Assembly (NCBI GenBank): GCA_025937035.1 | Contig: JAICSG010000036.1 | Coordinates: 1-13,696 of the forward strand | DNA from: Thermoanaerobaculia bacterium | GTDB taxonomy: Bacteria > Acidobacteriota > Thermoanaerobaculia > Multivoradales > UBA5704 | Direction of reading: 5' to 3' | Length of the DNA stretch: 13,696 bases | Part shown: in pieces, positions 1 through 13,696 of the stretch | Numbering within the stretch: the stretch's first letter is position 1 | How the letters are laid out: each line of letters opens with the position of its first letter | Notes under the pieces: model-generated | Told to the model about the DNA's origin: nothing | Seen by the model: only the letters and a program-made list of their open reading frames with translations | The model's database searches: none | Made by a program: the position numbers and the translations under genes

Positions 1-1566
1 CGCATATCCGAACGAATCCATGACCTTCGGCGCCATGGGGAGCGTTCCGCTCCGCAGATGCTCCACGATCTCTCCGCCGTCGAAGGTCGTGGCGCCGAAC
101 GCGGCGGGCGAGCGCGACGGAATCACGGTCCGCGCGCCGTTGACGATCGCGGCGTGGCCATCCCAGGCGATCTCGCGGATCGAGGAGGCGCCTCCGGGCT
201 GGTTGAGGAACTGTGTGGGCGGATTCACCTGGAAGGGCCGGAGGGCCAGGAAGAGCCTCGCTTTCCGGGCTTTTCCTCGATTGTGAAGGAGATAGCGGGC
301 GCGCAGCACGGATTGCCCCGGCGGGCCGGAGGCGAAGGCGGTGATCTCCAGCGAGAGGCCGTCGCGGGTCCAGGTCACGGTGGGGATGGGGAGATATCCG
401 TCCGCCAATGATTGAGAGGCTTTGACGTCGCTCCACGTGATCAGCTCGCCGTCGAGGAACAGGAACGGCTCGATCGAGAAGGCCCCCTGCCCCACCTCCA
501 GCGCGCCGTCCTCGCCGAGCAGGCCTTCCTCGGAATCGGCGTCCACGCCCACCACCGTCCAATATTCCTGCTGGCCGGAGAAGGAGCGGGGATAGGAGCC
601 GCGGGGGGCGTCCTTGGCGATCTGCTCGAAAAAGGCGTTGATGGTGGGGGCCCAGTCGAGGGGCTTGACGTCGAGATTGAGGAGGCCCGTTCCCCCCATT
701 GTAGAGACGCCCCGTGGGGCGGCTCCTTCGGAGGCCTTTCCTGGAACGGCGACGTTTGGCCTTTGAGGAGACGCCCCACGGGGCGTCTCTACAATGGGGG
801 CAATACCGGCAAGGCGCAGATACCGCGACTCCGTCTCCGGCAGATACAGATAATCCCGCCCGCCGTTCCCCCCTTTCACCTCGCGGACCGCCGTCCACGT
901 TTTCCCATCGTCCGAGATCTCGACCGTGTAGGAGGTGGGGCGGCTCCAATCGATCACCAGTCCGCCATATTCGCGGGATTCCAGGAAATCCCAGGTGACT
1001 GTATTTCCGGAGGTGGTGACGGCCGGCGTTCGCGCATAGGGATGCTCTGGCGGCAGAGGCGTGAATTTCAGGTCGTCGATCCAGACGGTCCCTTTGCCGC
1101 CGGTGCCGGCGGTGACGGCGAATTCGATCGCGGCCACCTGCTTCATGTCGCCGCCGCCGGCGGGGCCCCAGGCGAATTCGATCTGGCGCTTCTTGTTCCG
1201 CAGCTCCCGCCAGTCATGGGGGAACTGGAAATCGCGGCGGTTGATCCACCAGACGTTCTGTCCGCTGGGATCGATCAGCTTGAATTCGAGGTTGTTCACC
1301 GGCGCTTCGCCGCGGATGCGGAAGGAGATCTGCCAGTTGGCGGGCAAGTCGATCGCGAGGGCCTTGTGGGCCACGGCGTAGCCCGCGCCGCCGTGGAAAT
1401 CGAAGTCGAGGCGCAGAGACCCCTGGTCGTCCGAAAGGTCGAGGCGGACGCCGTCCGACGGGGCCGCGGTCCAGCCGGCGATCGTGGAGAAATCGTCGAG
1501 GGCTTGGGCGCTCAGGGACCTGGTTGCAAAAAGGACCGCAAGGACGGCAAGGACAGAGGAGCGCAC
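1..1566 (-). CDS. Secreted multidomain carbohydrate-active protein, C-terminus beyond the left edge
   Basis: Open for 522 codons from a GTG at 1566 to the window edge, so the C-terminal part is missing. The GTG has AAGGAG five bases upstream and lies two bases after the permease stop; a GTG at 1572 would overlap that stop and is an alternative. Residues 1-22 form a signal peptide ending SAQA. Residues ~24-165 look like a CBM11/CIA30-type beta-sandwich (starts DDFSTIAGW, ends GTVWIDDLKF). Residues ~166-255 resemble an F5/8 type C (discoidin) module (SYTVEISDDGKTW, SRYLRLAG). Residues ~256-292 come from a palindromic repeat. Residues ~293-522 start a larger domain (EGLLGEDGALEVGQGAFSIE, LFLALRPFQVNPP) of the kind seen in proteins annotated only as 'coagulation factor 5/8 domain protein'. 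I infer a glycan-binding protein or hydrolase acting outside the inner membrane on the same substrate as the operon's glucanase. I cannot assign a GH family; the catalytic part may lie off-window. Confidence 0.8.
   Translation of the reverse strand, partial: MRSSVLAVLAVLFATRSLSAQALDDFSTIAGWTAAPSDGVRLDLSDDQGSLRLDFDFHGGAGYAVAHKALAIDLPANWQISFRIRGEAPVNNLEFKLIDPSGQNVWWINRRDFQFPHDWRELRNKKRQIEFAWGPAGGGDMKQVAAIEFAVTAGTGGKGTVWIDDLKFTPLPPEHPYARTPAVTTSGNTVTWDFLESREYGGLVIDWSRPTSYTVEISDDGKTWTAVREVKGGNGGRDYLYLPETESRYLRLAGIAPIVETPRGASPQRPNVAVPGKASEGAAPRGVSTMGGTGLLNLDVKPLDWAPTINAFFEQIAKDAPRGSYPRSFSGQQEYWTVVGVDADSEEGLLGEDGALEVGQGAFSIEPFLFLDGELITWSDVKASQSLADGYLPIPTVTWTRDGLSLEITAFASGPPGQSVLRARYLLHNRGKARKARLFLALRPFQVNPPTQFLNQPGGASSIREIAWDGHAAIVNGARTVIPSRSPAAFGATTFDGGEIVEHLRSGTLPMAPKVMDSFGYA
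693..800. repeat. In-frame paired palindromic repeat, copy A
   Basis: Two outer arms of 34 bases (693-726 and 767-800) are reverse complements with one mismatch, separated by 40 bases. Each arm also carries its own palindrome; the right one (769-790) is GAGACGCCCC, AC, GGGGCGTCTC, with ten-base arms. Outer ends read CCCCCATTGTAGAGACG. The element is 108 bases (36 codons) and is translated without a stop inside the leftmost gene, as a linker containing IVETPRGAS and AAPRGVSTM between the discoidin-like module and the C-terminal domain. The same core occurs at 4569-4651. Its layout is like REP/BIME or MITE-type elements; no transposase is nearby. Confidence 0.9.
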
Positions 1567-1568
1567 TC

Positions 1569-2393
1569 TCACTCCTTGATGCTCCCCATGACGATGCCCT
1601 GGATGTAGGAGCGCTGGAGGGCGAGGAAGACGAGGAGGCCCGGCAGGACCGTGATCACCGCTCCGGCCATCATCAGCTCGGTGTCCTGCACGTGCTCGCC
1701 GGAGAGGTTGGCGAGCGCCACGGGCAGGGTGTACTTGCTCTCGTCGGTGAGCACGGTCAGCGGCCACAGGAAGTCGTTCCAGGAGGTCAGGAAGGTGAAG
1801 ACTCCCAGGGTGACGAGGATGGGCTTCATCAGCGGGAGCACCACGCTCCAGTAGATGCGGAGCTCGGAGGCGCCGTCGAGGCGCGCAGCGTCGAGGAGCT
1901 CGTCGGGAATCCCCTGCGCGAACTGGCGGATCAGGAAGATGCCGAAGACGGTGGCGATGGCGGCCACGATCACGCCGCCGAAGGAGTTGACCAGGCCGAG
2001 CGCCCGGATCTCCAGGAAGAGCGGGAGCACCGTGACCTGCGGCGGCACCACCAGGGTCGCCAGCAGCAGGGCGAAGAGCCGGCCGCGGCCGCGGAAGCGC
2101 AGCTTGGCGAAGGCGTACCCCGCCATCGAGTTGCAGAGCAGCGAGATGGCGGTGATCGCCACCGCAAGGAAAAGACTGTTCAGAAAATTCCGCCCGATGT
2201 TGAGGCGGGCGAACAGGGCCGCGTAGTGCTGGAGCGTGGGGTGCGAGGGGAGCAGGCGCAGCGGCAGGGACATCGCCTCGCCGGTGGGCATCAGCGACGC
2301 CGAGAGCATCCACAGGAGGGGCAGCGCGGTGAGCGCCGCCAGGAGCAGCAGCGCGCCGTTGACGGCGATCTTCGCCAACAGCCGGCGGCTCAC
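1569..2393 (-). CDS. Sugar ABC transporter permease, MalG-type (CUT1)
   Basis: A 274-residue inner-membrane permease, a normal length for the MalG-like subunit of carbohydrate uptake (CUT1) ABC importers. The N-terminal helix (residues ~5-30) is followed by several hydrophobic segments. The cytoplasmic coupling loop (EAA motif) is clear at residues ~164-191: DELLDAARLDGA followed by VLPLMKP. The C-terminus is the family's typical QRSYIQGIVMGSIKE. The start is GTG at 2393, overlapping the upstream permease stop by four bases (GTGA), with GGGAGGA seven bases upstream. The same frame stays open upstream to 2672, but that part has no membrane character and lies inside the other permease gene. It should pair with the MalF-type subunit. 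The ATPase is not encoded here, so a shared MsmK/UgpC-type ATPase elsewhere is likely. Confidence 0.95.
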   Translation of the reverse strand: MSRRLLAKIAVNGALLLLAALTALPLLWMLSASLMPTGEAMSLPLRLLPSHPTLQHYAALFARLNIGRNFLNSLFLAVAITAISLLCNSMAGYAFAKLRFRGRGRLFALLLATLVVPPQVTVLPLFLEIRALGLVNSFGGVIVAAIATVFGIFLIRQFAQGIPDELLDAARLDGASELRIYWSVVLPLMKPILVTLGVFTFLTSWNDFLWPLTVLTDESKYTLPVALANLSGEHVQDTELMMAGAVITVLPGLLVFLALQRSYIQGIVMGSIKE

Positions 2394-3298
2394 GCGCTCT
2401 TCCTCCCGCGGAGCAGCGCCTGCAGGCCGGTGGCGGCGATGATCAGCGCGAACAGCACGAAGGCGATCGCCGCCGCGGCGCCGAGGTTCCACCAGCGGAA
2501 CCCCTGCTCGTACATCAGCAAGGTGATCGAGGTGGTCGCGTACAGCGGGCCGCCCCGGGTCATCACGTAGGGCTCGGCGAAGATCTGGAACAAGCTCACG
2601 GTGATCAGGATCCCCACGAAGATGGTGGTCGGCTTCAGCAGCGGCAGGGTGATGTCGCGGAGTTGCCGCCACGCTCCGGCGCCGTCGAGCTCGGCCGCCT
2701 CGTAGAGCGACTCGGGGATGGCCTGGAGCCCCACCACATAGATCACCAGGCCGTAGCCGAAGCTGCGCCAGACCGCCAGCAGGGTGATCGCCACGGTCGC
2801 CCAGGCGGGATCGCCGAGCCAGTCGATCGCCGGCAGATGGAGCAGGCCGAGCATCTGATTGATCAGGCCGTAGCGCGGGTGGTAGAGGTAACGGAAGATC
2901 ACCGCCACGGCCACCAGCGTGGTGACCACCGGCGCGAAGAAGATGGTGCGGAAGAGGCCGCGCAGCTTCGCCACCTTCGAATTCACCAGCAGCGCGCCGC
3001 CGAGCGCCGCCCCCACGGTGAGCGGCACGCCGAGGACGACGAAGACCAGGGTATTGCGGATCACTTTCCAGAACAGCGGATCGCGCAGCAGCCGCAGGTA
3101 GTTGCTGGCGCCCACGAAGCGCAGGTTGCGCAGGTCCGCCAGGGCATAGATGTCGAAGTCGGTGAGCGAGAGCAGCAGCGCCGCGATCAGCGGCAGGGCG
3201 AAGAAGAGGGCGATGGCGCCCAGGGCGGGCGAGAGCAGCAGCCAGGCGGCCCGCCGCTCGGCCACGGAGCCGCGGCGCTCGTCGAGGTCCGGAGTCAC
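2390..3298 (-). CDS. Sugar ABC transporter permease, MalF-type (CUT1)
   Basis: A 302-residue inner-membrane permease. The first membrane helix is at ~18-47 (LSPALGAIALFFALPLIAAL) and the EAA coupling loop at ~196-223 (ESLYEAAELDGAGAW, then ITLPLLKP). The sequence GGLLYATTS-like segment before the last helices (TRGGPLYATTSITLLMYEQG) is typical of MalF/UgpA relatives. It lacks the long periplasmic P2 loop of E. coli MalF, as most CUT1 permeases do. The GTG start at 3298 overlaps the binding-protein stop (GTGA) with GGAGG seven bases upstream, so translation is probably coupled. It forms the transport channel with the MalG-type subunit encoded next. Substrate cannot be read from the permease itself; the neighbouring glucanase suggests beta-gluco-oligosaccharides. 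Confidence 0.95.
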   Translation of the reverse strand: MTPDLDERRGSVAERRAAWLLLSPALGAIALFFALPLIAALLLSLTDFDIYALADLRNLRFVGASNYLRLLRDPLFWKVIRNTLVFVVLGVPLTVGAALGGALLVNSKVAKLRGLFRTIFFAPVVTTLVAVAVIFRYLYHPRYGLINQMLGLLHLPAIDWLGDPAWATVAITLLAVWRSFGYGLVIYVVGLQAIPESLYEAAELDGAGAWRQLRDITLPLLKPTTIFVGILITVSLFQIFAEPYVMTRGGPLYATTSITLLMYEQGFRWWNLGAAAAIAFVLFALIIAATGLQALLRGRKSA

Positions 3299-4668
3299 CG
3301 CCGTGCCTCCGCGCTCGTTTCAGCGCGGTCGAGCATCCAGCGCCGTTTCTCGAGGATGCGGTCGACGTCCGCGTCGAGGGCGGCGAGCGCCTTGTCGAGA
3401 TCGCGGCCGCCGCGCATCACCTGCTCGGCGGCCTCGGCCATGCGGGTGGCGATGCGCTCCCATTCCGGCACTGTCGGGGTCGGCGCCGCGCGCTCCAGTT
3501 GCACGAGGAAGGGCGCGGCCTTGGGGTCGGCGGCGAGCCCGGCCAGAGGCCATGCGGAGCGCCGGGAGGGCAGGTCTCCCGAAAGCTTGTAGAAGCGCGC
3601 TTGGCTGGCCGGCTCGGAGAGGTATTGCAACCATTTCCACGTCGCTTCCGGTGACCGGGCGTGCCGGAAGAGGACAAGGCTGGAGCCCCCCGCCAGCGAG
3701 AGCCCCGGATAGGGCATCCCGGCCTCCGGCGGCGGCAGCGGCGCCGTGGCCCAGAGGTCCTGCTTGTCGGGTGGCAGACGGCGCCGGAACTCGCCGAGGT
3801 TCCAGGGACCGGTGATCACCATCGCGAAATACCCTTCCGCGAACTGCTGGTAGAGGTTCGCCACGCTCTGCAGATCGAGCGACGGCGCCAGGCCGGAGGC
3901 GTAGAGGTCGAGGTAGAAGGCCATCGCCTTGCGGAAGCGCGGATCGCGGAAGTCGCCGCGGCGGCCGCCGTCCGCCAGGAGCGGAGCGCCGGCCTGCAAC
4001 CCGAAGATGACCGGCTGCGTCCACTCGTCGATCGGGAGCAGGATGGCGTAACGGTTGGGACCGCCGCGCTGCTTGATCCGCGCCATGGTCTCGCGCCACT
4101 CGGCCCAGCTCCGCGGCGGCCAGGGGCCGCCCGCCGCCGCCACCAGATCGGTGCGGTAGAAGATCAGGCGGGTGTCCACGTACCAAGGGATGCCCCACGT
4201 CTTGCCGTCGAGCACGTTGGTGTCCCAGACGCCGGCGAAGGAGTCGGCGGCGAGCTCCGGCGGGATCCGCCCGTCGAGGCGGGCCAGGGCGTGCAGCGAC
4301 ACGAATTCCGGAATCCAGGTGTTGCCCAGTTGGGCGGCGTCGGGAGTGGCGTCGCCGACGTAGGCGGTCAGCAGCTTCTCGTGGGCGGCGGTCCAGGGGA
4401 CCTGCTGCACCTCGACCTTGATGTCCGGATGGCGGGCCTCGAACTCCGGCACCATCTCGCGAACGACTTCCCCTTCGCGGCCGAACCCCCAGAACCGCAC
4501 GGTGGTGCGCCCGCCCGCCTCTCCCCTCTCGCAGGAGGTCGCCCCGAGCAAAACGAGAAGCGCGAGCGCCACTGTAGAGACGCCCCGTGGGGCGTCTCCG
4601 TGTTGCGGGGCCACCGCATTGTAGACGCCCCTGGGGGCGTCTCTACAGTGGGCAGCAGCCGTTCTCAA
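3295..4668 (-). CDS. Extracellular sugar-binding lipoprotein (family 1 SBP), signal peptide split by a repeat
   Basis: A 457-residue family 1 solute-binding protein. The mature part starts with TTVRFWGFGREGEVVREM and includes the typical EFEARHPDIKVEVQQVPW, DAAQLGNTWIPEF and WGIPWYVDTRLIFYRTDL. It should hold oligosaccharide in the periplasm and hand it to the two permeases. The chosen start is TTG at 4668, overlapping the glucanase stop (TTGA) and preceded by GGAGG at a seven-base distance. That start gives MRTAAA, then 26 residues encoded by the palindromic repeat, then VALALLVLLGATSC with the probable lipidated Cys46. Removing the repeat leaves an ordinary 20-residue lipoprotein signal, so I infer an in-frame insertion. 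A GTG at 4572 would skip the repeat and leave a signal with no basic residues; it has no Shine-Dalgarno. Whether the long signal is functional is unknown. Confidence 0.92.
   Translation of the reverse strand: MRTAAAHCRDAPRGVYNAVAPQHGDAPRGVSTVALALLVLLGATSCERGEAGGRTTVRFWGFGREGEVVREMVPEFEARHPDIKVEVQQVPWTAAHEKLLTAYVGDATPDAAQLGNTWIPEFVSLHALARLDGRIPPELAADSFAGVWDTNVLDGKTWGIPWYVDTRLIFYRTDLVAAAGGPWPPRSWAEWRETMARIKQRGGPNRYAILLPIDEWTQPVIFGLQAGAPLLADGGRRGDFRDPRFRKAMAFYLDLYASGLAPSLDLQSVANLYQQFAEGYFAMVITGPWNLGEFRRRLPPDKQDLWATAPLPPPEAGMPYPGLSLAGGSSLVLFRHARSPEATWKWLQYLSEPASQARFYKLSGDLPSRRSAWPLAGLAADPKAAPFLVQLERAAPTPTVPEWERIATRMAEAAEQVMRGGRDLDKALAALDADVDRILEKRRWMLDRAETSAEARR
4569..4651. repeat. In-frame paired palindromic repeat, copy B
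   Basis: Outer ends are an 18-base perfect inverted repeat, CCACTGTAGAGACGCCCC at 4569-4586 and its complement at 4634-4651. Inside are two palindromes: 4577-4598 (GAGACGCCCC, GT, GGGGCGTCTC) and 4624-4641 (GACGCCCC, TG, GGGGCGTC). The copy sits six codons after the TTG start of the binding-protein gene and is translated as two DAPRGV-containing segments. Core and layout match the copy at 693-800; the sequence between the two palindromes differs. In the transcript it would form strong hairpins right behind the start codon. Confidence 0.9.
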
Positions 4669-6080
4669 GGCGCCACCTCCGCCAGCCAGCCGCCCGTGAA
4701 GCCGGCGCGCTGCAGGCCGCGCACGATGTGGGGGTTCTTCCGCATCACTTTCCAGACCAGGCCGCTGCGGTGGTTTTCGATCATCGCCACGATCGGTCCC
4801 TGATCGATGCCCAGATAATCGACGTCGAACCACCCCTGCTGCGGATCGACGCGCCCGGCCATCCCCTTCCCGCTCGTCCGCAGGGTGGGATTGAAGGCGT
4901 CGAGGAAGCCGTATTTGGAATAGAGATTGGCGCCGTAGCGGCGCTTCATCTCCCGCAGGGCCGCCATCGACAGGCCGGGGGTGAAGACGATCGATGAGAT
5001 CGCCCCCGTGGGAGCGATCGTGCCGTCGTCGCGGATCTCCCCCTCGGTGGCGCCGCGCGCCGCGTAGCCGTAGAAGGTCCGCTGCCGGCCGTCGATCGTC
5101 AGTGTCTTGTCCATGGGGCCGTCGCAGGCGGTGAGGCCCCAGACGTTCTCGCCGTAGTCGCGATAGCCGCTCGGATTGGCGATCGCATAGGCGTGCTGGG
5201 CGAGCGTGGCGCGGCGGGAATTCTCGAAATAGTCGATCCCATGGGCGCGCATGAAGGGGTCCTGGATGCCGCGGAAGTCGATCCAGACGTGCGAGTACTG
5301 GTGACCGAAGAGAGGCGCGAAGAGCAGGTGCTCCTGGCCGTAAAACGTGCCCCAGCGGTAGGTCTTGGTGTACTGCTCCCAGGCGTCCGCGCCGACCGGA
5401 TGGGTGGGCGAGCCGAGGGCGAGGACGATCACGATCATCGCCTCGTTGTAACCGCGCCAATCATAGGAATGGAAACCTTCCTCGGGCGTCCAGCCCATGC
5501 TGATCGCCGGCCGCCGCGCCTGCTCCCAGGGCCAGTCCACGCGCTCGTAAAGCTGCTCGGCGGTGGCGTGGATGGCCGTTTCGGTGGCGTCGCCGCGATC
5601 GAAATAGGACTGCGCGAAGAGCACGCCGGCCATCAGCAGCGAGGTGTCCACGGTGGACAGCTCGACGGTCTGGAAGCGCTCGGCGGTCCGCATGTCGAGG
5701 AAGTGATAGAAGAAACCTTTGTATCCAGAGACGCCCCGCGGCTCGGGCCCCTGTTTCATGGCGAGGAGCGAGCGCAGCGTGGCCAGGGCCCGCTTCGCGG
5801 CCTGCTGGCGGGTGACGTAGCCGCGCTCGGCGCCGATGCCGTAGGCGGTGAGGCCGAAGCCCACCGCGGCGATGCTGGAGAACGACGGCGTGGGCGCGCG
5901 GTCGGGAATCAGCAGCGTATGGGGATCGGCCAGGTCCCAGAAGTATTGAAACGAGCGGCGCTCGACGTCGTCGAGAAGCGCCGCGTCGGAAACTTTGGCT
6001 GGTGGATCGTGGGGCACGGGCGTGCCCGTGCATGAAGAAGACGCGAGGGCGAGGAGGAGCGGAATGATCCTTCGTGTCAA
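4665..6080 (-). CDS. PF10091 'glycoamylase' lipoprotein, GH144-type endo-beta-1,2-glucanase candidate
   Basis: A 471-residue protein with a lipoprotein signal (MTRRIIPLLLALASSSC, Cys17). Motifs of the PF10091 (alpha/alpha)6 family run through the length: SFQYFWDLADP (~43-53), SSIAAVGFGLTAYGIGAERG (~68-87), GYKGFFYHFLD (~119-129), ELSTVDTSLLMAGVLFA (~140-156), GYNEAMIVIVLALGSPTH (~210-227), PLFGHQYSHVWIDFRGI (~256-272), GIDYFENSRRAT (~281-292), WGLTACDGP (~314-322), GTIAPTGA (~353-360), GWFDVDYLGIDQGPI (~416-430). Characterised GH144 members are endo-beta-1,2-glucanases that release sophoro-oligosaccharides; related domains occur in cyclic beta-1,2-glucan synthases. An outer-membrane or periplasmic role before uptake is inferred. 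The start is TTG at 6080 with AGGAGG five bases upstream; no better in-frame start exists. It lies 30 bases after the receptor gene and overlaps the binding protein by four. Exact substrate specificity is not proven by sequence. Confidence 0.9.
   Translation of the reverse strand: MTRRIIPLLLALASSSCTGTPVPHDPPAKVSDAALLDDVERRSFQYFWDLADPHTLLIPDRAPTPSFSSIAAVGFGLTAYGIGAERGYVTRQQAAKRALATLRSLLAMKQGPEPRGVSGYKGFFYHFLDMRTAERFQTVELSTVDTSLLMAGVLFAQSYFDRGDATETAIHATAEQLYERVDWPWEQARRPAISMGWTPEEGFHSYDWRGYNEAMIVIVLALGSPTHPVGADAWEQYTKTYRWGTFYGQEHLLFAPLFGHQYSHVWIDFRGIQDPFMRAHGIDYFENSRRATLAQHAYAIANPSGYRDYGENVWGLTACDGPMDKTLTIDGRQRTFYGYAARGATEGEIRDDGTIAPTGAISSIVFTPGLSMAALREMKRRYGANLYSKYGFLDAFNPTLRTSGKGMAGRVDPQQGWFDVDYLGIDQGPIVAMIENHRSGLVWKVMRKNPHIVRGLQRAGFTGGWLAEVAP
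4676..4680 (-). promoter_or_regulatory. Ribosome binding site that fixes the TTG start of the binding protein
   Basis: GGAGG (minus strand) lies seven bases before the TTG at 4668-4666, inside the last codons of the glucanase gene. Neither alternative in-frame GTG (4572, or the one between the two repeat palindromes) has such a site. This supports translation through the repeat. Confidence 0.7.
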
Positions 6081-6110
6081 GCGGTCCTCCTCGCCATGCG
6101 GGTCAAGCTA

Positions 6111-8936
6111 TCAGAAGTTGATCTTCAGCCCCACCTGCTCGCGGCGCGGGAGGTTGATCACGCACTGCGGGTTGCCGAAATTGGAGTTTCCCCCGGGTCC
6201 GATGAAGTTGTCCAGACAGCCGTAGCTCGCCCAGTTGAAGGCGTTGAAGATCTCGCCGACGATGCCCACCGAGACGCTGCCCGCGACGCGGAAATCCTTC
6301 TCCAGATGGAAATCGACCGAGCGGTCGGCGAAGCCCCAGGTCTTCGGCGGATAGATCGTGCGGTCGAACGGCCGGGTCTGCTCGCGGGCCGGCAGGTCGA
6401 AGCCCTGCGAGAAGTCGAGGACGTTGAAGGCCGCGCCGGTCCCCAGGGTGATGGTGGTGCTGAAGGTCAGCTCCCAGGGGAGCCCGAAGATGCCGTTGGC
6501 CACGATGCGGTCCTTCTCCGAGCCCGGCACGTCATGCTTGCCGTACGCGGCGGCGCTCGGATAGTCGAGGCTGAACAGATCGTTGCCGGTCTGCTTGGCG
6601 TTGGCGTGCGTGTAGGCGAGGTGCACGCCCCAATTGTTGGTGAACGGCCGGTCGAGGGTGAAGAAGAGGGCGTCGTACCAGTACCGCTTGCCATTGGGGT
6701 CGGAGATGATCACGTTGCCGAAGCCTGGCACCAGCGCCGCGCAGCAGATGCCGCTCGCCGACAGCCAGGTGAAGCCGTGGTAGCCGCGGACGCCGTTATA
6801 GCTCAACGAGGCGTTCCAACTGCCGAACGCCTGGCGGACGCCGAGGTTCCACTGGTTCGAGTAGGGTGGCTTGGTGTTGTTGTTGAGCAGGTAGATCTCG
6901 GGGCTGGTCTGGCCCGAGGCGATCAGCTCGTGCAGGCCCGCGGGAGTCAGGTAGCGCGGATCCCACATGATCGTCGGGGCGCCGTTGCGCGGCTGGCCAT
7001 TGGGCGAGAACTCGATGCGGTAGACCGGGTATTGCAGGCGGAACCGCTCGTCGAGCGTGGCGTTGAGGAAGAGGCGGTCGAAGTAGCGGCCGGCGCCGCC
7101 GAAGAGGATCGACTTGCCGTCCCCCCGCAGATCGTAGGAGAAGCCGAGGCGCGGCTGGATCTGGCTCGTGTACTGCGAGCGGTTGTGGCCGTTCGAGAAG
7201 TAGCTGGAGTCGATTTTGCCGGTGAGCGCCGCCACGATGTTCGCCGGCGTAACGTAATCCTCGTCGAGCTGGTTGGTCTCGTAGTCGTAGCGCAGGCCCA
7301 GGTTGATCGTGAGCCGCGGATTGACCGTCCAGGTGTCCTGGGCGTAGATGCCGTACTCCTGGTTGTTGGCCGACAGGTCCGGATTGCCGAAGCCGAACTG
7401 CGCCTCGTACGGCTGATCGAACGTCAGGCCGTTCGCCGGATCGATCCGGAAGTTGTAGACCGGGTTGCCGGTCTGGAACTTGGTGACGTTATAGCGGAGG
7501 AAATCGGCATTGCCGCCGACCTGCAGGCTGTGGTCGCCCCCGGCCTGGAAGGTGGGCAGGTTGTAGTCGTCGCGCAACTCGGTCCGCTTCTGGTCGAACT
7601 TCTGGCTCGTGTCCTTGCCGCCGATGCGGATGGCCCCTTCAAAGTTGAGGCCGACGAGGTCGGGATTGAGCGCCGCCTGATTCCAGGTGTAGTCCTGCCA
7701 GCTCAGCGAGAGCTGGTTGAGCGCCACGTCGCTGTTCCAACTGTGGCGCAGGGTTGTGCCCCACACCTGGTTCTTGAGATCGGTCGCCGTCTGGTAGGAG
7801 GTTATGCCGCCGAAGTCGCGGATCTCGTGCTCTTTGCGATAGTTGCCGCTGAGGTCCACGATCTGGTTCTGCGCCGGCTGCCAGCTCAGCTTGCCGAACC
7901 CCAGATTCGACTTGAAGGGGCTGGGGAAGACGCCGGCAAACTGGCTGAACGAGGGGGGAAGATCGGGGTCGACGACGACCGGCGTGGTGGCGTGCTCGTC
8001 GACCCCCTCATACGACAGGAAATAATGAAGCTTATCCTTGATGATCGGTCCGCCGATCGAGGCGCCGGGCTGGCTGCGTCGGTAGTCCTGATTGGTGGTC
8101 AGCGTCGAATACTGGAAATTCTTCGGCAGCTCGGACACCCACTGCTTCGGCTGATAGAACCAGAAGAGCTGGCCGCGCACGTCGTTGCCGCCCGACTTGG
8201 TGACCGCCGTGATGACGGCGCTCGATGCCTTCTCGTATTGCGCGCTGTAGTTCTGGGTGATGACGCGAAACTCCTGCACGGCGTTCTGCGGGAACGGGTT
8301 GCCGCGGCTGGTGTCCTGTCCGACCAGACCTCCTTGCAGCACGTCGTTCTTGAAGCTGACGCCGTCGATGAACACGTTGGTCTGCTCGGCCGGCTGGGCG
8401 TCGCTGGTGATCGTCTTGCGCAGGGGATCGTTGGACAGATGGACGCCCGGCGCCAGGGCGGCGAAGTTGAGGAAGTTGCGGTCGTCCTGGGGCAGGTTCT
8501 CGATCTGCTGCGGGGTGACGTTGGTCGCCGCCTCGGGGGTCCGGATGTCGATCGCCTGCTCGCCCACGACGGTGATCGATTCGCTGATCACCGCGGTGGG
8601 TGTCATCACGAAGGTGACGTTGAGGCTCTGGCCCACGCGCACGGTCACCGTCTGCGAGCGCTCCTCGAACCCCTGGGCCGAGACCGTGATGATGTACTCG
8701 CCCGGGATCAGGTTGCCGAGTTGGAAGGCCCCGTCAGGCCCCGCCTTGACGGTGGTGACGAACCCCGACGTGGTGCCCACGGCGGTGATCTGGGCCCCGG
8801 CGAGCACCGCGTTCTGGTTGTCCGTCACCTTGCCGCGGATCGTCGCCGTCGACGTCTGGGCGAGCGCGGGGACCGCCAGAGCGCCGGCGAGCAGCAAGAG
8901 CAGAAGCGATCTCAGTGATCTCAGAAGTCGTGTCAT
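6111..8936 (-). CDS. TonB-dependent outer-membrane receptor, Oar-like with carboxypeptidase-type regulatory domain
   Basis: A 941-residue receptor. The signal peptide ends at Ala26 (ALAVPALAQ). A PF13620-type carboxypeptidase regulatory domain follows (~29-115: TATIRGKVTDNQNAVLAGA, GEYIITVSAQGFE). A TonB-box-like stretch (SESITVVGEQA, ~120-132) precedes the plug (~133-250: QQIENLPQDDRNFLNFAALA, TNVFIDGVSF, NAVQEFRVITQNYSAQY) and a long beta-barrel with repeated aromatic strands (SYDLRGDGKSILFGGAGRYF). The chain ends in Phe, as outer-membrane barrels do. The ATG at 8936 is preferred because AAGGAG lies seven bases upstream; an in-frame TTG at 8954 precedes that site. There is no SusD-like partner, which fits Acidobacteriota rather than Bacteroidota. 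Its place between regulator and glucanase suggests it imports the glucanase's oligosaccharide products using TonB energy. Confidence 0.95.
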   Translation of the reverse strand: MTRLLRSLRSLLLLLLAGALAVPALAQTSTATIRGKVTDNQNAVLAGAQITAVGTTSGFVTTVKAGPDGAFQLGNLIPGEYIITVSAQGFEERSQTVTVRVGQSLNVTFVMTPTAVISESITVVGEQAIDIRTPEAATNVTPQQIENLPQDDRNFLNFAALAPGVHLSNDPLRKTITSDAQPAEQTNVFIDGVSFKNDVLQGGLVGQDTSRGNPFPQNAVQEFRVITQNYSAQYEKASSAVITAVTKSGGNDVRGQLFWFYQPKQWVSELPKNFQYSTLTTNQDYRRSQPGASIGGPIIKDKLHYFLSYEGVDEHATTPVVVDPDLPPSFSQFAGVFPSPFKSNLGFGKLSWQPAQNQIVDLSGNYRKEHEIRDFGGITSYQTATDLKNQVWGTTLRHSWNSDVALNQLSLSWQDYTWNQAALNPDLVGLNFEGAIRIGGKDTSQKFDQKRTELRDDYNLPTFQAGGDHSLQVGGNADFLRYNVTKFQTGNPVYNFRIDPANGLTFDQPYEAQFGFGNPDLSANNQEYGIYAQDTWTVNPRLTINLGLRYDYETNQLDEDYVTPANIVAALTGKIDSSYFSNGHNRSQYTSQIQPRLGFSYDLRGDGKSILFGGAGRYFDRLFLNATLDERFRLQYPVYRIEFSPNGQPRNGAPTIMWDPRYLTPAGLHELIASGQTSPEIYLLNNNTKPPYSNQWNLGVRQAFGSWNASLSYNGVRGYHGFTWLSASGICCAALVPGFGNVIISDPNGKRYWYDALFFTLDRPFTNNWGVHLAYTHANAKQTGNDLFSLDYPSAAAYGKHDVPGSEKDRIVANGIFGLPWELTFSTTITLGTGAAFNVLDFSQGFDLPAREQTRPFDRTIYPPKTWGFADRSVDFHLEKDFRVAGSVSVGIVGEIFNAFNWASYGCLDNFIGPGGNSNFGNPQCVINLPRREQVGLKINF

Positions 8937-8972
8937 GACACCTCTCCTTTTCAATCCTCTCCAGTCCTCAAG

Positions 8973-9986
8973 TCATAGACCCTTCATGGCGCCGCCGCAG
9001 GAGCCCCGCACCACCAGCGTGGTGGGGACGGTCTCCTGGCGCCGCTCGTGCTCGTTCTTGCGATCTACCGCGTGCAGCAGCCGCTCCATGGCGCGCGTCC
9101 CCAGCTCCGCGATGGGCACGTGCACCGAGGAGAGCGGCGGGGTGACGTAGCGGGCGATCGGAATGTCGTCGAAGCCGGCCAGGGCGACGTCGCCGGGCAC
9201 CTCGACGCCCGCCTCGCGCAGGGCGAAGAGGCAGCCGATCGCCATCGAGTCGTTGGCGGCGAAGACCGCCTCGGGGCGCGGCTCCAGGGCGAGCAGGTGC
9301 TGGCCCGCCTGATACCCGGACTCCTCGCTGAAATCGCCCGGGATCTCGAGCGCGGACGACGGCGCGATCCCCTCCGCGCGGAGGGCGTCGCGGTAACCGC
9401 GCAGGCGCTCGCGGGCGTCGGCGTTCTCCGCCGGCCCGCAGATCAGGGCGATGCGCCGGTGCCCCAGGGCCGCCAGATGGCGAGCCATGGCGAACGCCCC
9501 CCCATAGTTGTCGACGTTGATGGCGTCGAACGCGAGCCTCTCCACTCTCGTATTGAGGAGCACCACGGGGAGCGTCTCGGGGAGGTTGCGGCGCAGGGTC
9601 TGGGCGTCGACGTCGGGCGAGAGAACGATCAGCCCGTCCACCCGTCCGCGCAGGGCCCGCAGCACGGCCTCGATCTCGGCGCGGTCGCTGTGGAAGCCGG
9701 AGACCAGGACGTGATAGCCGCTGCGGCGCGCCGCGAGGTCGACCCCGCGGATGACCTCGGAGAAGAACTCGCCGTAGAGGTCCGGCAGCAGCACGCCGAT
9801 GGTGTCGGTCTGGTTGGTGATCAGGCTGCGGGCGGCGCCGTGGGGGACGTAGCGGAGCTGCTCGATGGCCGCCAGGATGCGCTGGCGCGTCTCCGCGGCG
9901 ACCGGCCCCTTCTCGTTGATGACACGGGAGACGGTGGCGATCGATACCCCCGCCTTGAGAGCGACCTCCTTGATGGAGGCGCTCAA
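8973..9986 (-). CDS. LacI-family transcriptional regulator of the glycan operon
   Basis: A 337-residue regulator. The N-terminal LacI helix-turn-helix is complete (residues 5-26: IKEVALKAGVSIATVSRVIN), followed by the hinge helix (~50-58, HGAARSLIT) and a periplasmic-binding-protein-like effector domain (TIGVLLPDLYGEFFSEVIRG, DGLIVLSP, ALICGPAENADARERLRGY, VFAANDSMAIGCLFALREAG, VALAGFDDIPIARYVTPPLSSV). The TTG start at 9986 is forced: the DNA-binding domain begins within five residues and no other in-frame start lies upstream before the operator. It has only a weak G-rich ribosome site. It is the first gene of the operon, 36 bases before the receptor gene, and a matching palindromic operator lies 76 bases upstream. 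It is probably a repressor released by an imported sugar, controlling its own operon. The effector is unknown. Confidence 0.95.
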   Translation of the reverse strand: MSASIKEVALKAGVSIATVSRVINEKGPVAAETRQRILAAIEQLRYVPHGAARSLITNQTDTIGVLLPDLYGEFFSEVIRGVDLAARRSGYHVLVSGFHSDRAEIEAVLRALRGRVDGLIVLSPDVDAQTLRRNLPETLPVVLLNTRVERLAFDAINVDNYGGAFAMARHLAALGHRRIALICGPAENADARERLRGYRDALRAEGIAPSSALEIPGDFSEESGYQAGQHLLALEPRPEAVFAANDSMAIGCLFALREAGVEVPGDVALAGFDDIPIARYVTPPLSSVHVPIAELGTRAMERLLHAVDRKNEHERRQETVPTTLVVRGSCGGAMKGL

Positions 9987-10061
9987 GGCCCGTTCCCCCC
10001 AAAACTTTGCCGCACGGAAAAAGAGGTCATATCGGCTCCTGGGCGTCCGCCCACGACCCGG

Positions 10062-10075
10062 TGTAATCGTTTACA
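10062..10075. promoter_or_regulatory. LacI-type operator palindrome
   Basis: TGTAATCGTTTACA is a 14-base inverted repeat with one mismatched pair and a central CG, the layout of LacI-family operators. It starts seven bases downstream of the proposed -10 element of the lacI promoter, so it would cover the transcription start. No second copy was seen in the window. Confidence 0.75.
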
Positions 10076-10082
10076 GCGGCGT

Positions 10083-10112
10083 ACCGTAACAGGGGGGTTG
10101 GCGGGTTGTCAA
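10083..10112 (-). promoter_or_regulatory. Sigma-70-type promoter of the lacI-led operon
   Basis: On the minus strand TTGACA (10112-10107) is followed after 18 bases by TACGGT (10088-10083), which is preceded by TG at the extended -10 position. The -35 is consensus; the -10 matches at three of six positions. The LacI-type operator directly follows, and the lacI TTG start is about 95 bases downstream. Confidence 0.6.
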
Positions 10113-10190
10113 GGAAATGTCACGCAGGGGAGCACCCGCCCCCGCTCCTCCAGGGCGGTCTGTCGCTCCAGAAACGACGGCATCCTGGAC

Positions 10191-10219
10191 TTGATCTCAG
10201 GTCCTGATTTTTCTAGGAT
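10191..10219 (+). promoter_or_regulatory. Candidate promoter of the ParB-like/phosphatase pair
   Basis: TTGATC (10191-10196), a 17-base spacer and TAGGAT (10214-10219) fit a sigma-70 promoter, with four of six matches in each box. It lies about 110 bases before the ParB-like start and points away from the lacI operon. Confidence 0.4.
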
Positions 10220-10331
10220 CCACAACAAGATGTAGCGCTTTCTCGCGATCCGGAAGGAGGTGCAGCGCGTCCGAGCGGACCTGCCGGTCTCGCCAGGGCC
10301 CGGGTCATGCCAGATGTGGAAAGGATCTATC

Positions 10332-10580
10332 GTGGAGAAGGGCCCACTCAAGCCGCTGCATGCCGACGGTTCGTTGAGTCAGCCGAAATTGGCCGCTTTC
10401 CGGAAGCTCTCGACGGAGGGTCTGATCGGCTCGTTACATCCAGGCGAGCCCGGGGCTCTCAAGGTAAAGGCGGACGGCACTATAATGGACGGACACCACC
10501 GCATATACGTCCTGCGGGAACGTGGTGTGGACGTCGACGCTCTCCCGCGAGAGCCTTGGAGTGAGGGCCATCTGCAATGA
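10332..10580 (+). CDS. Small ParB-like (DGHHR) protein
   Basis: An 82-residue soluble protein. The GTG at 10332 is chosen because AAAGGA lies a few bases upstream; ATG at 10314 and GTG at 10260 are in the same frame. The second half, ALKVKADGTIMDGHHRIYVL followed by RERGVDVDALPREPW, resembles the first strands and the helix of ParB/sulfiredoxin-like domains, where a D/N-G-H/N-H-R segment contributes to nucleotide or substrate binding. The protein is much shorter than ParB and has no DNA-binding helix-turn-helix, so a chromosome-partition role is unlikely. Its stop overlaps the ATG of the phosphatase gene (ATGA), so the two are probably co-translated and may work together. The function is unknown. 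Confidence 0.7.
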   Translation: MEKGPLKPLHADGSLSQPKLAAFRKLSTEGLIGSLHPGEPGALKVKADGTIMDGHHRIYVLRERGVDVDALPREPWSEGHLQ

Positions 10581-11095
10581 GAACCGAAGTCTACTGGGTG
10601 CCGGGTCCCTGGCCAGGTCGTTTGGGCATCGTTCCACGGCCTCGCGGCGGTGACTGGCTCGCGGATGAGGTCCGTTCGTGGAAGGCGTCCCAGATCGACG
10701 TTCCAGTCTCGCTCTTGACCTCAGAGGAGGCCGCTGAGCTTGGTCTCCAGGCGGAAGAGGCGCTCGCCCGTGAGGAGGGACTGGAGTATCACGCCTTTCC
10801 GATCCCTGATTACAGTGTGCCTCGTTCCCGCGCGGACCTTCTCCGTTTTCTCAGCCGTTTGGAGGAGGCACTGGAGTCGGGGAAGAACGTGGCGGTCCAC
10901 TGCCGCGCGGGTATCGGCAGGTCCTCGATCGTCGTCGCGTCTCTGCTCGTCGCCGCGGGCCTGGAGCCTGAAGAGGCGTTCCGCCGCATTGAGAAGGCTC
11001 GCGGCAGACCGGTACCGGATACTCCCGAACAGCGAGAGTGGGTGGCTCAGAATGTGTCCGAAGCCGCGGCGCCGATTCGATCCCATCAAGATTGA
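10577..11095 (+). CDS. Dual-specificity-type protein phosphatase
   Basis: A 172-residue cytoplasmic protein with the cysteine phosphatase signature HCRAGIGRSS at 108-117: nucleophile Cys109, phosphate-binding Arg115 (CX5R). A probable general acid Asp78 is in FPIPDYSVPRS, as in the WPD-type loop of dual-specificity phosphatases. The N-terminus (YWVPGPWPGRLGIVPRPRGGDWLADEV) is typical of bacterial members that begin with a beta-strand and a 'GGDWL' helix. The C-terminal helix (PEEAFRRIEKARGRPVPDTPEQREWV) closes the fold. The fold removes phosphate from Tyr or Ser/Thr in proteins; other phosphoesters are possible. The ATG overlaps the stop of the ParB-like gene by four bases. The real substrate is unknown; the partner protein is a candidate. 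Confidence 0.9.
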   Translation: MRTEVYWVPGPWPGRLGIVPRPRGGDWLADEVRSWKASQIDVPVSLLTSEEAAELGLQAEEALAREEGLEYHAFPIPDYSVPRSRADLLRFLSRLEEALESGKNVAVHCRAGIGRSSIVVASLLVAAGLEPEEAFRRIEKARGRPVPDTPEQREWVAQNVSEAAAPIRSHQD

Positions 11096-11115
11096 CCAGG
11101 ACAGCCCGCCCGTTT

Positions 11116-11131
11116 TTCGACACCTGTCGAA
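11116..11131. repeat. Perfect palindrome after the phosphatase gene
   Basis: TTCGACA, CC, TGTCGAA is a perfect 7+2+7 inverted repeat 20 bases after the phosphatase stop and about 130 bases before the GAF remnant. A T-run comes before it, not after, so it is not a normal terminator for the plus strand. It could be a binding site for a dimeric regulator, a weak terminator for the minus strand, or chance. Confidence 0.35.
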
Positions 11132-11259
11132 TTCCAGACACCCGCAACCCCCGCCACGCCATCGGGGTCTTTCCTCCCTAACCGAAGCCCCAGGAAGCCT
11201 TTACGATTCTGCCGGCCGATGTCCCCCGGGCTGGCACGCGGCGTGGGAAGAGGATCCGC

Positions 11260-11833
11260 ATGACAGTGCTCGCCTATCGATCCTCCCGCACCGAGCCGAG
11301 ACCGGCCTCGCGCGATAAGATGACGCCGGACGCTGCGGATTCGCTCCGCTCTGTCGAGGGATCTCCTTTGATGACGACCGAAGCTGTGAGGGCTGCGTGG
11401 CCGCTGGCGGTGGATTCGGCTCCGCTCGATCCCCTTGTGGCCGCCCTCCGGCACATCGCGCGGTTCGTCTCCAGCACCCTGGAGCTGCGGGAGGTCTTCA
11501 CGCGCGTGGCCGAGGCCGCGGCCACCGTGCTACCCCTCGACTTCATGGGCGTGGTGCGCGTCAAGGGACCGGACGCCCTGGAGACTGCAACAAGTGCCGC
11601 TCCCTCGGCGTGCGCGCGCTGCTCAAGATCCCGCTGCGCCTCGACGGCGGGTTCATCGGCGCGCTGATCTTCTTCTCCAAAACCCCGGGCCGCTATTCCG
11701 AGGAAGACGTCGTGGTGGCCCGCCGGGTGGCCGACCACGTGAGCCTGGCTCTCTCGCACCAGTGCCTGGCCGAGGAGCAGCGCCAGGCGGCGGAGGCCCG
11801 CGAGCGCGCCGCGCGTCTGGAGCAGCGCGTGCA
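11260..11833 (+). pseudogene. Decayed GAF-domain (NtrC-type) regulator
   Basis: ATG at 11260 (GAAGAGG upstream) opens a frame encoding a short leader and the first part of a GAF domain (PLVAALRHIARFVSSTLELR, EVFTRVAEAAATVLPLDFMG, VVRVKGPDAL). Around 11585-11600 the family pattern jumps to another frame: RSLGVRALLKIPLRLDGGFI, GRYSEEDVVVARRVADHVSL, then a charged helix (EEQRQAAEARERAARLEQRVQ). The middle of the GAF domain is missing, which suggests a deletion of several dozen codons plus loss of frame. In related proteins this helix leads into a sigma-54-activating AAA+ domain and a helix-turn-helix; here it ends and the following sequence is not recognisable. The gene is therefore very probably non-functional. 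The first frame stops at 11667; the second runs on to 11996 without recognisable content. Confidence 0.7.
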
Positions 11834-12167
11834 GGCCCCCGGCTCGCCGGGGCACATCCTGAAAACCGATCGCGAATCGCGGGCGCGGAGGCCTCGGGAG
11901 GGACTGCTTTGGTTTATTGCCCTTTTCCATCCAGGGGCTTATGGACAAGCATCGAAGCGCGTTGACGCAGGCGATGAAGTGCTTTACGATGCCTAAGTAG
12001 AGCGGAGATAGTGAGATAGCGGGCCAGCTATTTGTTCGACGTATCGTCTGATTCCAGAGGCCGTTGAATGGAAACGAGACGAAGCCATCGGCCGCATTGT
12101 TAAATGTGAGGATTCGATGGCACCGTTGGACGGTTCCCCCACATCGTTCACATCATGAGGAGCATTC
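11834..12167. other. Region without a supported gene
   Basis: It follows the point where the GAF remnant loses homology. A short GC hairpin lies at 11837-11852 without a T-run. The frame of the remnant stays open to 11996 but its content is not recognisable. From about 11900 the base composition is lower in GC than in neighbouring genes, which may mark old rearranged or transferred DNA. GAGGAG at 12157-12162 is the ribosome site of the peroxidase gene. I saw no clear promoter or RNA gene. Confidence 0.5.
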
Positions 12168-13696
12168 ATGACCACTCCGACGAAAGGCTCACCCGAGACC
12201 CCGCGCCCACCCCGGCCCTGTGCCGGTGCCCTGACGGCCAGACAAATCCAGCGGCTGCAGGAACGGATGGGCGATCCGTTCAACTCGCTACCGCCCCATG
12301 CCGCGTTCACCATGCTTATGCGGCACGGCGGCCTGCCCGTGTTGCTCGACCAGACGTCCGCCGCCCGCCGGCTGGCCCCGTTCCTGTCGGCCGCCGACAC
12401 CACGACTGGCGCGGCGATGACCCCGGACGACGTCGCCCAGCAGTTGGAGCAGGCCGCCCAGGATTTCTTCCGCAAGCTGGTCAACCACCCCGGCTATATA
12501 GCGAACGCCGACCTGATCTCGTACATCACGTTCCCATATACCGGCAAAACGTTCGAGGGCACCGCCACGGTGAGCGCCTCCGTGCCGGCCGTGTTCACGT
12601 TCGTCGGGCAGTTCATCGACCACGACCTGACGATGAACGCGGTCGACCTGTTCACGGACCAGACCGGCCCCGTCCGGAACGGGGCGTCACCCCTGATCGA
12701 TCTCGACAGCGCGTACGGCCCGCGGACCACCGGCACCGGGCTGGTCAACATCCCGACGGTCAGCGGCACTCCCAAGGGCGATCTTATCTTCGATCACAAT
12801 GGCAAGTTCAAGATGCACCCTATCGAAGGAACGAACGGGTTCGACCTGAACCGGACGAAGATGTCGGTGCCGGCCGGCCCGATCACGCACCGGCCGCCGG
12901 CGTTCACGGCCCACATCTTCGACAGCCGCAACGACGAGAATCAGCTCATCCTGCAGATTCACATCCTGTTGGAGCGGGTGCACAACAAGCTGGTCGATAC
13001 CAACGCCCTGCACACCGCCGGGAAGCCGAAGGACGAAGTGATCACCACAGTGCGGAGGGAGGTGGTGGCCAACTGGCAGACGGTCGTTCTCCAGGACTAC
13101 CTGCCGCGAGTCATCGAGGCGGCCACGCTGACCAACGTGCTGACGCAAATCCGGCAGATCAACTTCGGCAACCTGAAACATAAGCCGCTGCTCGACCTGG
13201 CCAGCGGGGCGCTGGTGGTGCAGTTGCCGCACGAGTGGGCGATCGGGTTCCGGTTCGGCCACAGCCAGTTGCGGCCCAGCTACCACCTGAACGCCGGGGG
13301 CGGGGCGGACGTCAAGCTGTTCGACAACCTGACCGCTCACCCCGGCAAAGACGATCTGCGGGGGAGCGTCCACCTGCCGCCCGAGCATGTGATCGACTGG
13401 GCCAAGTTCTACCCGGACGGAAGCTTGCCTAACGGCACCCGCTCGTTGGGAATCGACAGCAAGGTGACGCCGCCGGTGTTCAACCTACCCGAGAGCACGA
13501 TCCCGGACTCGATCAAAACGGTCGGCAACCTGCCCCAGCGGACCCTGGTTCGCGGCCGGTCGATCGGGGTCGTCTCGGGTGAAGAGCTGTACGACTTCTA
13601 CACCTCCAACGAAGGCGGCCCACCGGTCCCGCTGGTCCACCCCAGGCTGACGCCGCTCGAAGTGGAGCCGAACCCCGCTGTCCACCACCTGTTCAC
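12168..13696 (+). CDS. Animal-type haem peroxidase, C-terminus beyond the right edge
   Basis: The first 509 codons of a member of the peroxidase-cyclooxygenase (An_peroxidase) superfamily. The ATG at 12168 has GAGGAG five bases upstream. All key motifs are present: distal FVGQFIDHDLT with Asp151 and His152; catalytic DSRNDENQLILQIHILLER with Arg254; and proximal GFRFGHSQLRPSY with His365, which would ligate the haem iron. Helix LLERVHNKLVDTN matches the stretch that follows the Arg motif in myeloperoxidase relatives. There is no signal peptide; a Pro-rich leader (~1-20) and about 120 residues precede the catalytic core. Known bacterial members oxidise halides or oxygenate fatty acids; the substrate here is open. 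No co-transcribed partner is visible and the gene lies beside decayed DNA, so lateral acquisition is possible. Its end is cut by the window. Confidence 0.92.
   Translation, partial: MTTPTKGSPETPRPPRPCAGALTARQIQRLQERMGDPFNSLPPHAAFTMLMRHGGLPVLLDQTSAARRLAPFLSAADTTTGAAMTPDDVAQQLEQAAQDFFRKLVNHPGYIANADLISYITFPYTGKTFEGTATVSASVPAVFTFVGQFIDHDLTMNAVDLFTDQTGPVRNGASPLIDLDSAYGPRTTGTGLVNIPTVSGTPKGDLIFDHNGKFKMHPIEGTNGFDLNRTKMSVPAGPITHRPPAFTAHIFDSRNDENQLILQIHILLERVHNKLVDTNALHTAGKPKDEVITTVRREVVANWQTVVLQDYLPRVIEAATLTNVLTQIRQINFGNLKHKPLLDLASGALVVQLPHEWAIGFRFGHSQLRPSYHLNAGGGADVKLFDNLTAHPGKDDLRGSVHLPPEHVIDWAKFYPDGSLPNGTRSLGIDSKVTPPVFNLPESTIPDSIKTVGNLPQRTLVRGRSIGVVSGEELYDFYTSNEGGPPVPLVHPRLTPLEVEPNPAVHHLF

Follow-up and report, generated by a model that had tools for sequence, protein, structure and literature searches.

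A GTAG-tagged REP doublet in frame in the signal-peptide region of a sugar-binding lipoprotein from a Thermoanaerobaculia bacterium

How a palindromic repeat came to lie within the reading frame of a lipoprotein signal peptide, and whether it is translated there, is the question raised by a 13,696-nt stretch of a Thermoanaerobaculia bacterium (contig JAICSG010000036.1, positions 1-13,696, forward strand; hereafter the window). A paired palindrome located at 4569-4651 on the minus strand is in frame and encodes about residues 7-33 of a sugar ABC transporter substrate-binding lipoprotein (SBP_bac_1/SBP_bac_8; 3295-4668, minus strand; 457 aa with the insert), and the protein read from the TTG at 4668 is (M)RTAAA-HCRDAPRGVYNAVAPQHGDAPRGVST-VALALLVLLGATSC. 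An earlier note on this DNA had described an in-frame palindromic repeat inside a lipoprotein signal peptide, and its coordinates and translation proved right. Its statement that the length is a multiple of three is valid for the segment CAC..ACA (78 nt), but not once the conserved CCACT/AGTGG ends are counted as part of the repeat (83 nt).

The repeat and its dispersed family

The element possesses two arms of 29 nt each (4569-4597 and 4623-4651), which are 93% complementary, and the predicted folding energy of the 83-nt element is -65.4 kcal/mol, whereas 300 mononucleotide shuffles averaged -30.0 (SD 3.4). On the minus strand, it can be described as a GTAG-type REP doublet (REPIN, HH dimer) with the arrangement CCACT-[REP]-spacer-[inverted REP]-AGTGG, in which one REP arm, GTAGAGACGCCCCGTGGGGCGTCTC, is present at 4574-4598 on the plus strand with no mismatch, and the second, inverted arm at 4622-4646 on the minus strand with one mismatch. 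The consensus of the dispersed repeat is CCACT-GTAGAGACGCCCC-GT-GGGGCGTCTC, and most of the copies listed read GTAG-AGACGCCCC-GT-GGGGCGTCT, which agrees with the GTAG tag beside a palindrome with a short stem (mostly 6-9 bp) that is typical of such REPs.

A genome-wide search with the core, allowing three mismatches, returned 48 + 50 matches, many of them palindromes counted on both strands, while the reversed control returned 0 + 0, indicating that the palindrome is not a matter of chance. The fetched loci of the genome to which the window belongs (G000) comprise 31 places, including 19 HH doublets, 2 TT doublets and 10 single arms, with doublet spacers of 17-83 nt, and those of the relative G002 comprise 17 places (11 HH, 2 TT and 4 single; spacers of 20-125 nt). 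Several of the single arms are located at contig ends. Both the multi-copy dispersal and the inverted doublets agree with REPs and REPINs, in which spacers are mostly of 20-100 nt. The copies are also mostly extragenic: 3 of the 31 groups in G000 are entirely within a called gene and 2 extend across a gene end, while none of the 17 groups in G002 is inside a called gene and one overlaps a gene (genes were called with our own codon-based caller, and the binding-protein copy of G000 and the BatD copy of G002 were added by hand). Of the 72 genomes of the order that were scanned, two, G000 and G002, contain the exact core pattern. BLAST with the locus as query gave matches in 3 of 40 genomes: G000 itself, G002 and, with short partial matches, G001.

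The HH dimers of GTAG-tagged REPs (Di Nocera et al. 2013, PMC3733652) are the elements otherwise known as REPINs (PMC3116915) and BIMEs (PMC8266576). They share with the repeat reported here the GTAG next to a short GC stem-loop, the inverted doublets with variable spacers and the location mostly near gene ends, as well as the use of the TAG of the tag as a stop codon and the presence of some copies in frame within genes. Moreover, TnpA-REP of E. coli cleaves at CT (PMC8266576), and the same dinucleotide is found immediately 5' of GTAG in 57 of the 75 exact arms of our fetched loci. In contrast, the string GTAGAGAC is absent from the text of PMC3733652, and the repeat here is limited to one genus among the 72 genomes of the order.

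A cognate RAYT with a matching REP alongside was sought without success in 30 fetched PF01797 loci (five genomes, 33 matches listed in all), where the fetched flanks extended up to 1.5 kb in fragmented assemblies. In G000 and G002, RAYT-like genes are flanked by other hairpins, and Y1 transposase (RAYT-like) genes close to inverted hairpins of other families were noted at L145, L150, L143 and L149. A literature search with the 9-mer GTAGAGACG gave unrelated titles only among the matches listed, and among the papers listed from the part of the open-access literature searched, no report of this REP family or of recurrence in n-regions was found. Judged from these features, the element at 4569-4651 is to be assigned to a dispersed, non-autonomous family of GTAG-tagged REP doublets of the REPIN/BIME type.

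Insertion into the binding-protein gene

The gene encoding the binding protein starts with a TTG codon (4666-4668, minus strand) that overlaps the TGA stop of the upstream gene (4665-4667), and a Shine-Dalgarno sequence, GGAGGT (4675-4680, minus strand), is located 6 nt from the TTG. The upstream gene encodes a putative glucanase (Pfam Glycoamylase PF10091; 4665-6080, minus strand), whose stop precedes the repeat by 13 nt. Downstream of the repeat, the hydrophobic core ALALLVLLGATSC and the lipobox appear intact by reading, and the cysteine expected to be lipidated is encoded by codon 46 (ATSC; 4531-4533, minus strand; lipobox read by eye). Read from the TTG, the n-region extended by the repeat would comprise about 33 residues, including four Arg and two Asp.

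The earlier note had regarded the segment as inserted and proposed to check whether orthologues from close relatives lack it, and the comparison supports the insertion. Peptides of the family were found at the annotated N-terminus of none of the 120 orthologues listed (of 7990 matches), a count in which annotated database starts could mask a repeat if the gene caller began behind it. At the DNA level, the three relatives G001, G002 and G003 keep the TTGA/GTGA stop/start overlap without the repeat, and the palindrome is present in none of 83 fetched loci of relatives. Two binding-protein orthologues, P0073 and P0075, contain such peptides close to their C-terminal end. The cysteine before FWGFG has a median position of 19 in the 112 listed orthologues possessing one, and it stands at position 40 or beyond in seven of them, through other or doubtful starts. 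Compared with P0001, the closest among the listed orthologues (96% identical), the window protein is longer by a net 29 codons, with 33 instead of 4 residues before ALALL, which shows that the leader was altered outside the repeat too. Among named relatives, Thermoanaerobaculia MAGs are the nearest. The sequence comparison supports the view that the segment is an insertion missing from relatives, and the empty sites are consistent with mobility, seen as presence or absence in sequence.

The window also differs from its relatives in a larger block. From about 1.5 to 4.5-4.7 kb, identity to the sister species G002 is 68-73%, compared with 88-92% outside, while G003 shows the opposite, with 79-83% inside and 66-76% outside; G001 and G002 are 77-85% identical to each other throughout. 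These identities suggest that the transporter block (two permeases and the binding protein, about 1490-4660) was acquired by allelic replacement, the donor being a relative of another genus. The right breakpoint can be placed only between about 4500 and 4690, and the repeat is inside that interval. The suggestion that the replacement ends exactly at the repeat was weakened, as the sequence already departs from that of G001 and G002 in the last codons of the glucanase gene, and the coincidence of repeat and breakpoint is regarded as weak evidence.

Copies within BatD and an F5/8 type C protein

A copy of the REP doublet, also in the same frame, is found after the start and ahead of the hydrophobic core in the BatD genes of G000 (L108) and G002 (L126) and in protein P0122. 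In L108 and L126, where the DNA was seen, the GTG start of BatD shares bases with the upstream stop, and from there to the core none of the codons ATG, GTG and TTG occurs; therefore, the BatD signal peptide would require reading through the repeat, barring a rare start such as ATC or CTG. On the sequence evidence, BatD provides the best support for translation through the repeat. Between G000 and G002, the BatD arms show 1 difference in 50 sites, compared with 10% in the gene body and 17% at third positions (P = 0.03 against the gene average and P = 0.001 against third positions). The 28-nt spacer differs between L108 and L126 at 19 of its 28 sites at the same length, in a gene about 10% different; this divergence may reflect fast turnover or conversion.

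Other repeats are found in BatD as well. The BatD proteins P0205, P0208 and P0226 have another peptide in common, RVGAGLDGGAGARPAL, for which the hairpin DNA was seen in G001, while P0186 carries yet another insert peptide. BatD of G003 possesses a CTCACCCCC-type twin hairpin immediately after the start, which supplies an in-frame GTG, and given this GTG, the G003 repeat may be untranslated. No such insert is apparent in most of the 120 BatD proteins listed.

The window itself contains the REP doublet a second time, at 690-803 (minus strand), in frame in a gene encoding an F5/8 type C (discoidin) domain protein (1-1566, minus strand; 522 aa, cut by the contig end); this copy goes beyond the earlier note. 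In the AlphaFold2 model, the insert forms a loop between two strands, in which residues 262-289 have pLDDT values below 50, while the model is mostly confident elsewhere (mean 81.6, pTM 0.70). A Foldseek search with this model returned matches to carbohydrate-binding modules, which added nothing to the finding. Protein P0268, from a longer contig and with 13 differences per 500 compared residues, also carries the insert of 690-803. P0268 has a very different annotated leader, the protein being otherwise nearly identical to that of the window. At 1480-1566 of the window, the signal peptide of the F5/8 protein (VLAVLAVLF) is encoded by a directly repeated 9-nt unit (GTCCTTGCC-like).

No insert is present in this loop in G001 and G003, while G002 carries a different twin hairpin, in frame and at the same point. 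At L123 (1380-1520, minus strand), the different twin-hairpin repeat in frame in this loop of the F5/8 orthologue is apparently nested in another inverted repeat. The loop was measurable in 112 of the 120 orthologues listed (of 5458 matches), spanning 25-33 residues in 99 and 38-84 residues in 13 of them, and the 8 unmeasured orthologues have ordinary-looking loops in the text. By eye, six of the 13 long loops contain peptides of the REP family found at 4569-4651, five a GAS/GIS..GR..TAAL-type peptide (with a nested further repeat-like peptide in three cases), one an AQDFNPG-type peptide and one a KDSKDG repeat, where the DNA was seen for the window and G002 only and the others were judged from peptides. 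Within one insert type, shared ancestry is possible.

These comparisons recall recB of Xanthomonas campestris and X. oryzae, in which different REPs occupy about one site of orthologues (PMC3733652); here, however, different repeat families at the same spots of orthologous genes are suggested for two genes and about four families, most of them seen as peptides only.

Placement behind stop codons, translation and alternatives

The distance from the repeat to the upstream stop is 13 nt at the glucanase gene and 17 and 18 nt in BatD, while six other co-directional copies chosen have gaps of 20, 22, 23, 79, 135 and 141 nt, and at L111, L093 and L097 the stop is within or abuts the repeat. The repeat supplies the stop codon of the gene at L111 (2707) and L093 (1286), and a copy at L105 (2619-2705) forms the in-frame C-terminal tail of a GT87-like protein. 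REPs are often located close behind genes (PMC3733652). We propose that a REP doublet, presumably mobilized by a RAYT transposase, landed 13 nt behind the glucanase stop, which would be a frequent place for a REP. Because the start of the binding protein overlaps the glucanase stop by 4 nt, this place would fall in the n-region of the signal peptide of the next gene. The net length change is a multiple of three and the frame is open through the repeat, which would allow the protein still to be made from the TTG. The insertion would be tolerated since many different sequences of mildly positive charge are acceptable in an n-region, and export would be expected to remain intact with the core and lipobox kept. 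As a whole, this account of a REP doublet inserted in frame in the n-region, translated from the TTG and tolerated, is considered probable. The step by which stop-proximal placement turns into an n-region is one we infer from few cases.

The hairpin might have been retained for regulation, stalling ribosomes or shielding the upstream mRNA and thereby lowering the glucanase relative to the transporter. REPs of E. coli within 15 nt of a stop lower translation (Liang et al. 2015, as cited in PMC12306157), and the gap here is within that limit; the predicted hairpin is very stable, and the BatD arms are nearly unchanged between two species in which the spacer has diverged. However, such a hairpin is absent from the listed binding-protein orthologues, both BatD gaps exceed the 15-nt limit, and the conservation of the BatD arms is modest against the gene average and could be explained by gene conversion. 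We consider this explanation rather unlikely, and it can hold together with insertion and translation of the repeat. The upstream glucanase, whose stop lies just ahead of the repeat, is a more plausible regulatory target than the TTG start. The suggestion of the earlier note that the hairpins tune expression, taken as hiding of the start codon, was not supported, since removing the segment left the predicted unpaired probability of the Shine-Dalgarno/start region (-15 to +3) practically unchanged (0.40 with and 0.41 without it in a 132-nt stretch, 0.25 and 0.26 in a longer one).

Alternatively, the repeat could be untranslated or partly so, with translation starting at the GTG of codon 33 at the 3' AGTGG end of the repeat (4570-4572, minus strand) or at the GTG of codon 19 in the spacer (4612-4614, minus strand), and the rest would be an intergenic 5' leader. 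The earlier note had named evidence for a start at the GTG after the repeat as refuting its reading; that GTG is indeed in frame, with the hydrophobic core directly after it, but is an unlikely start, and the second GTG, at codon 19, was not named. The latter is also in frame and has a predicted accessibility of 0.32, about that of the TTG (0.24-0.40); its presence slightly reduces our confidence in the TTG as the start. PMC3733652 cautions that N-terminal REPs may be untranslated owing to downstream starts, and in BatD of G003 the end of another repeat likewise provides an in-frame GTG. However, neither GTG has a good Shine-Dalgarno sequence, and that of codon 33 is mostly paired in the predicted hairpin (unpaired probability 0.06-0.09) and would leave an n-region without positive charge. 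The TTG, in contrast, has a strong Shine-Dalgarno sequence and the conserved overlap, and BatD of G000 and G002 has no such start ahead of the core. A start inside or behind the repeat is accordingly judged quite unlikely, and the most likely start of the binding protein is still the TTG, with translation passing through the repeat.

An assembly artefact, in which the repeat joins two unrelated pieces of a short-read MAG, is very improbable: identity to G002 shifts between about 91% and about 70% around the repeat and the assembly consists of 1254 contigs with several copies at contig ends, but gene order is identical in G001, G002 and G003, the low-identity block also ends near 1.5 kb, where no such repeat is present, the longest perfect match elsewhere in the genome (33 nt, among the matches listed) is short for a misjoin, and the reading frame is intact across the repeat.

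The locus can be compared with other in-frame palindromes. Rickettsia palindromic elements (Ogata et al. 2000/2002, as described in PMC10969869 and PMC2229807) are in frame in genes of conserved proteins and are tolerated there, similar to the copies here in the binding protein, the F5/8 protein and BatD. However, Rickettsia belongs to another phylum and the copies here are mostly intergenic; the likeness is one of placement, and membership is not claimed. In YPO1552 of Yersinia, a YPAL/RU-2 repeat encodes part of a predicted signal peptide, as is the case here (PMC2229807); that gene encodes a putative new exported protein, whereas the present host is a conserved transporter lipoprotein, and its listed orthologues carry no such repeat at that place. 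The word "unusual" in the earlier note is thus too strong for the class, as in-frame palindromic repeats, including N-terminal ones, have been published for Rickettsia and for GTAG/CGTC REPs (PMC3733652, PMC2229807 and PMC10969869). Since in-frame REPs are already known, the recurrence of several families at two gene positions is the most interesting aspect.

The locus represents a well-resolved case outside Rickettsia, in which hairpin DNA that is normally intergenic probably becomes protein, and the suggested reason is that overlapping genes offer no gap for the hairpin. The series of orthologues with an empty site, the same repeat or different repeats at one position permits direct tests of the tolerance of n-regions and loops, and automatic start calls beside REPs need care. 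Tentatively, and with some doubt on our part, stop/start overlaps may act as funnels through which unrelated REP families repeatedly invade the same gene positions, namely n-regions, along with certain surface loops. If this were true, repeat-encoded n-regions and loops would regularly contribute to the variation of proteins in these acidobacteria.
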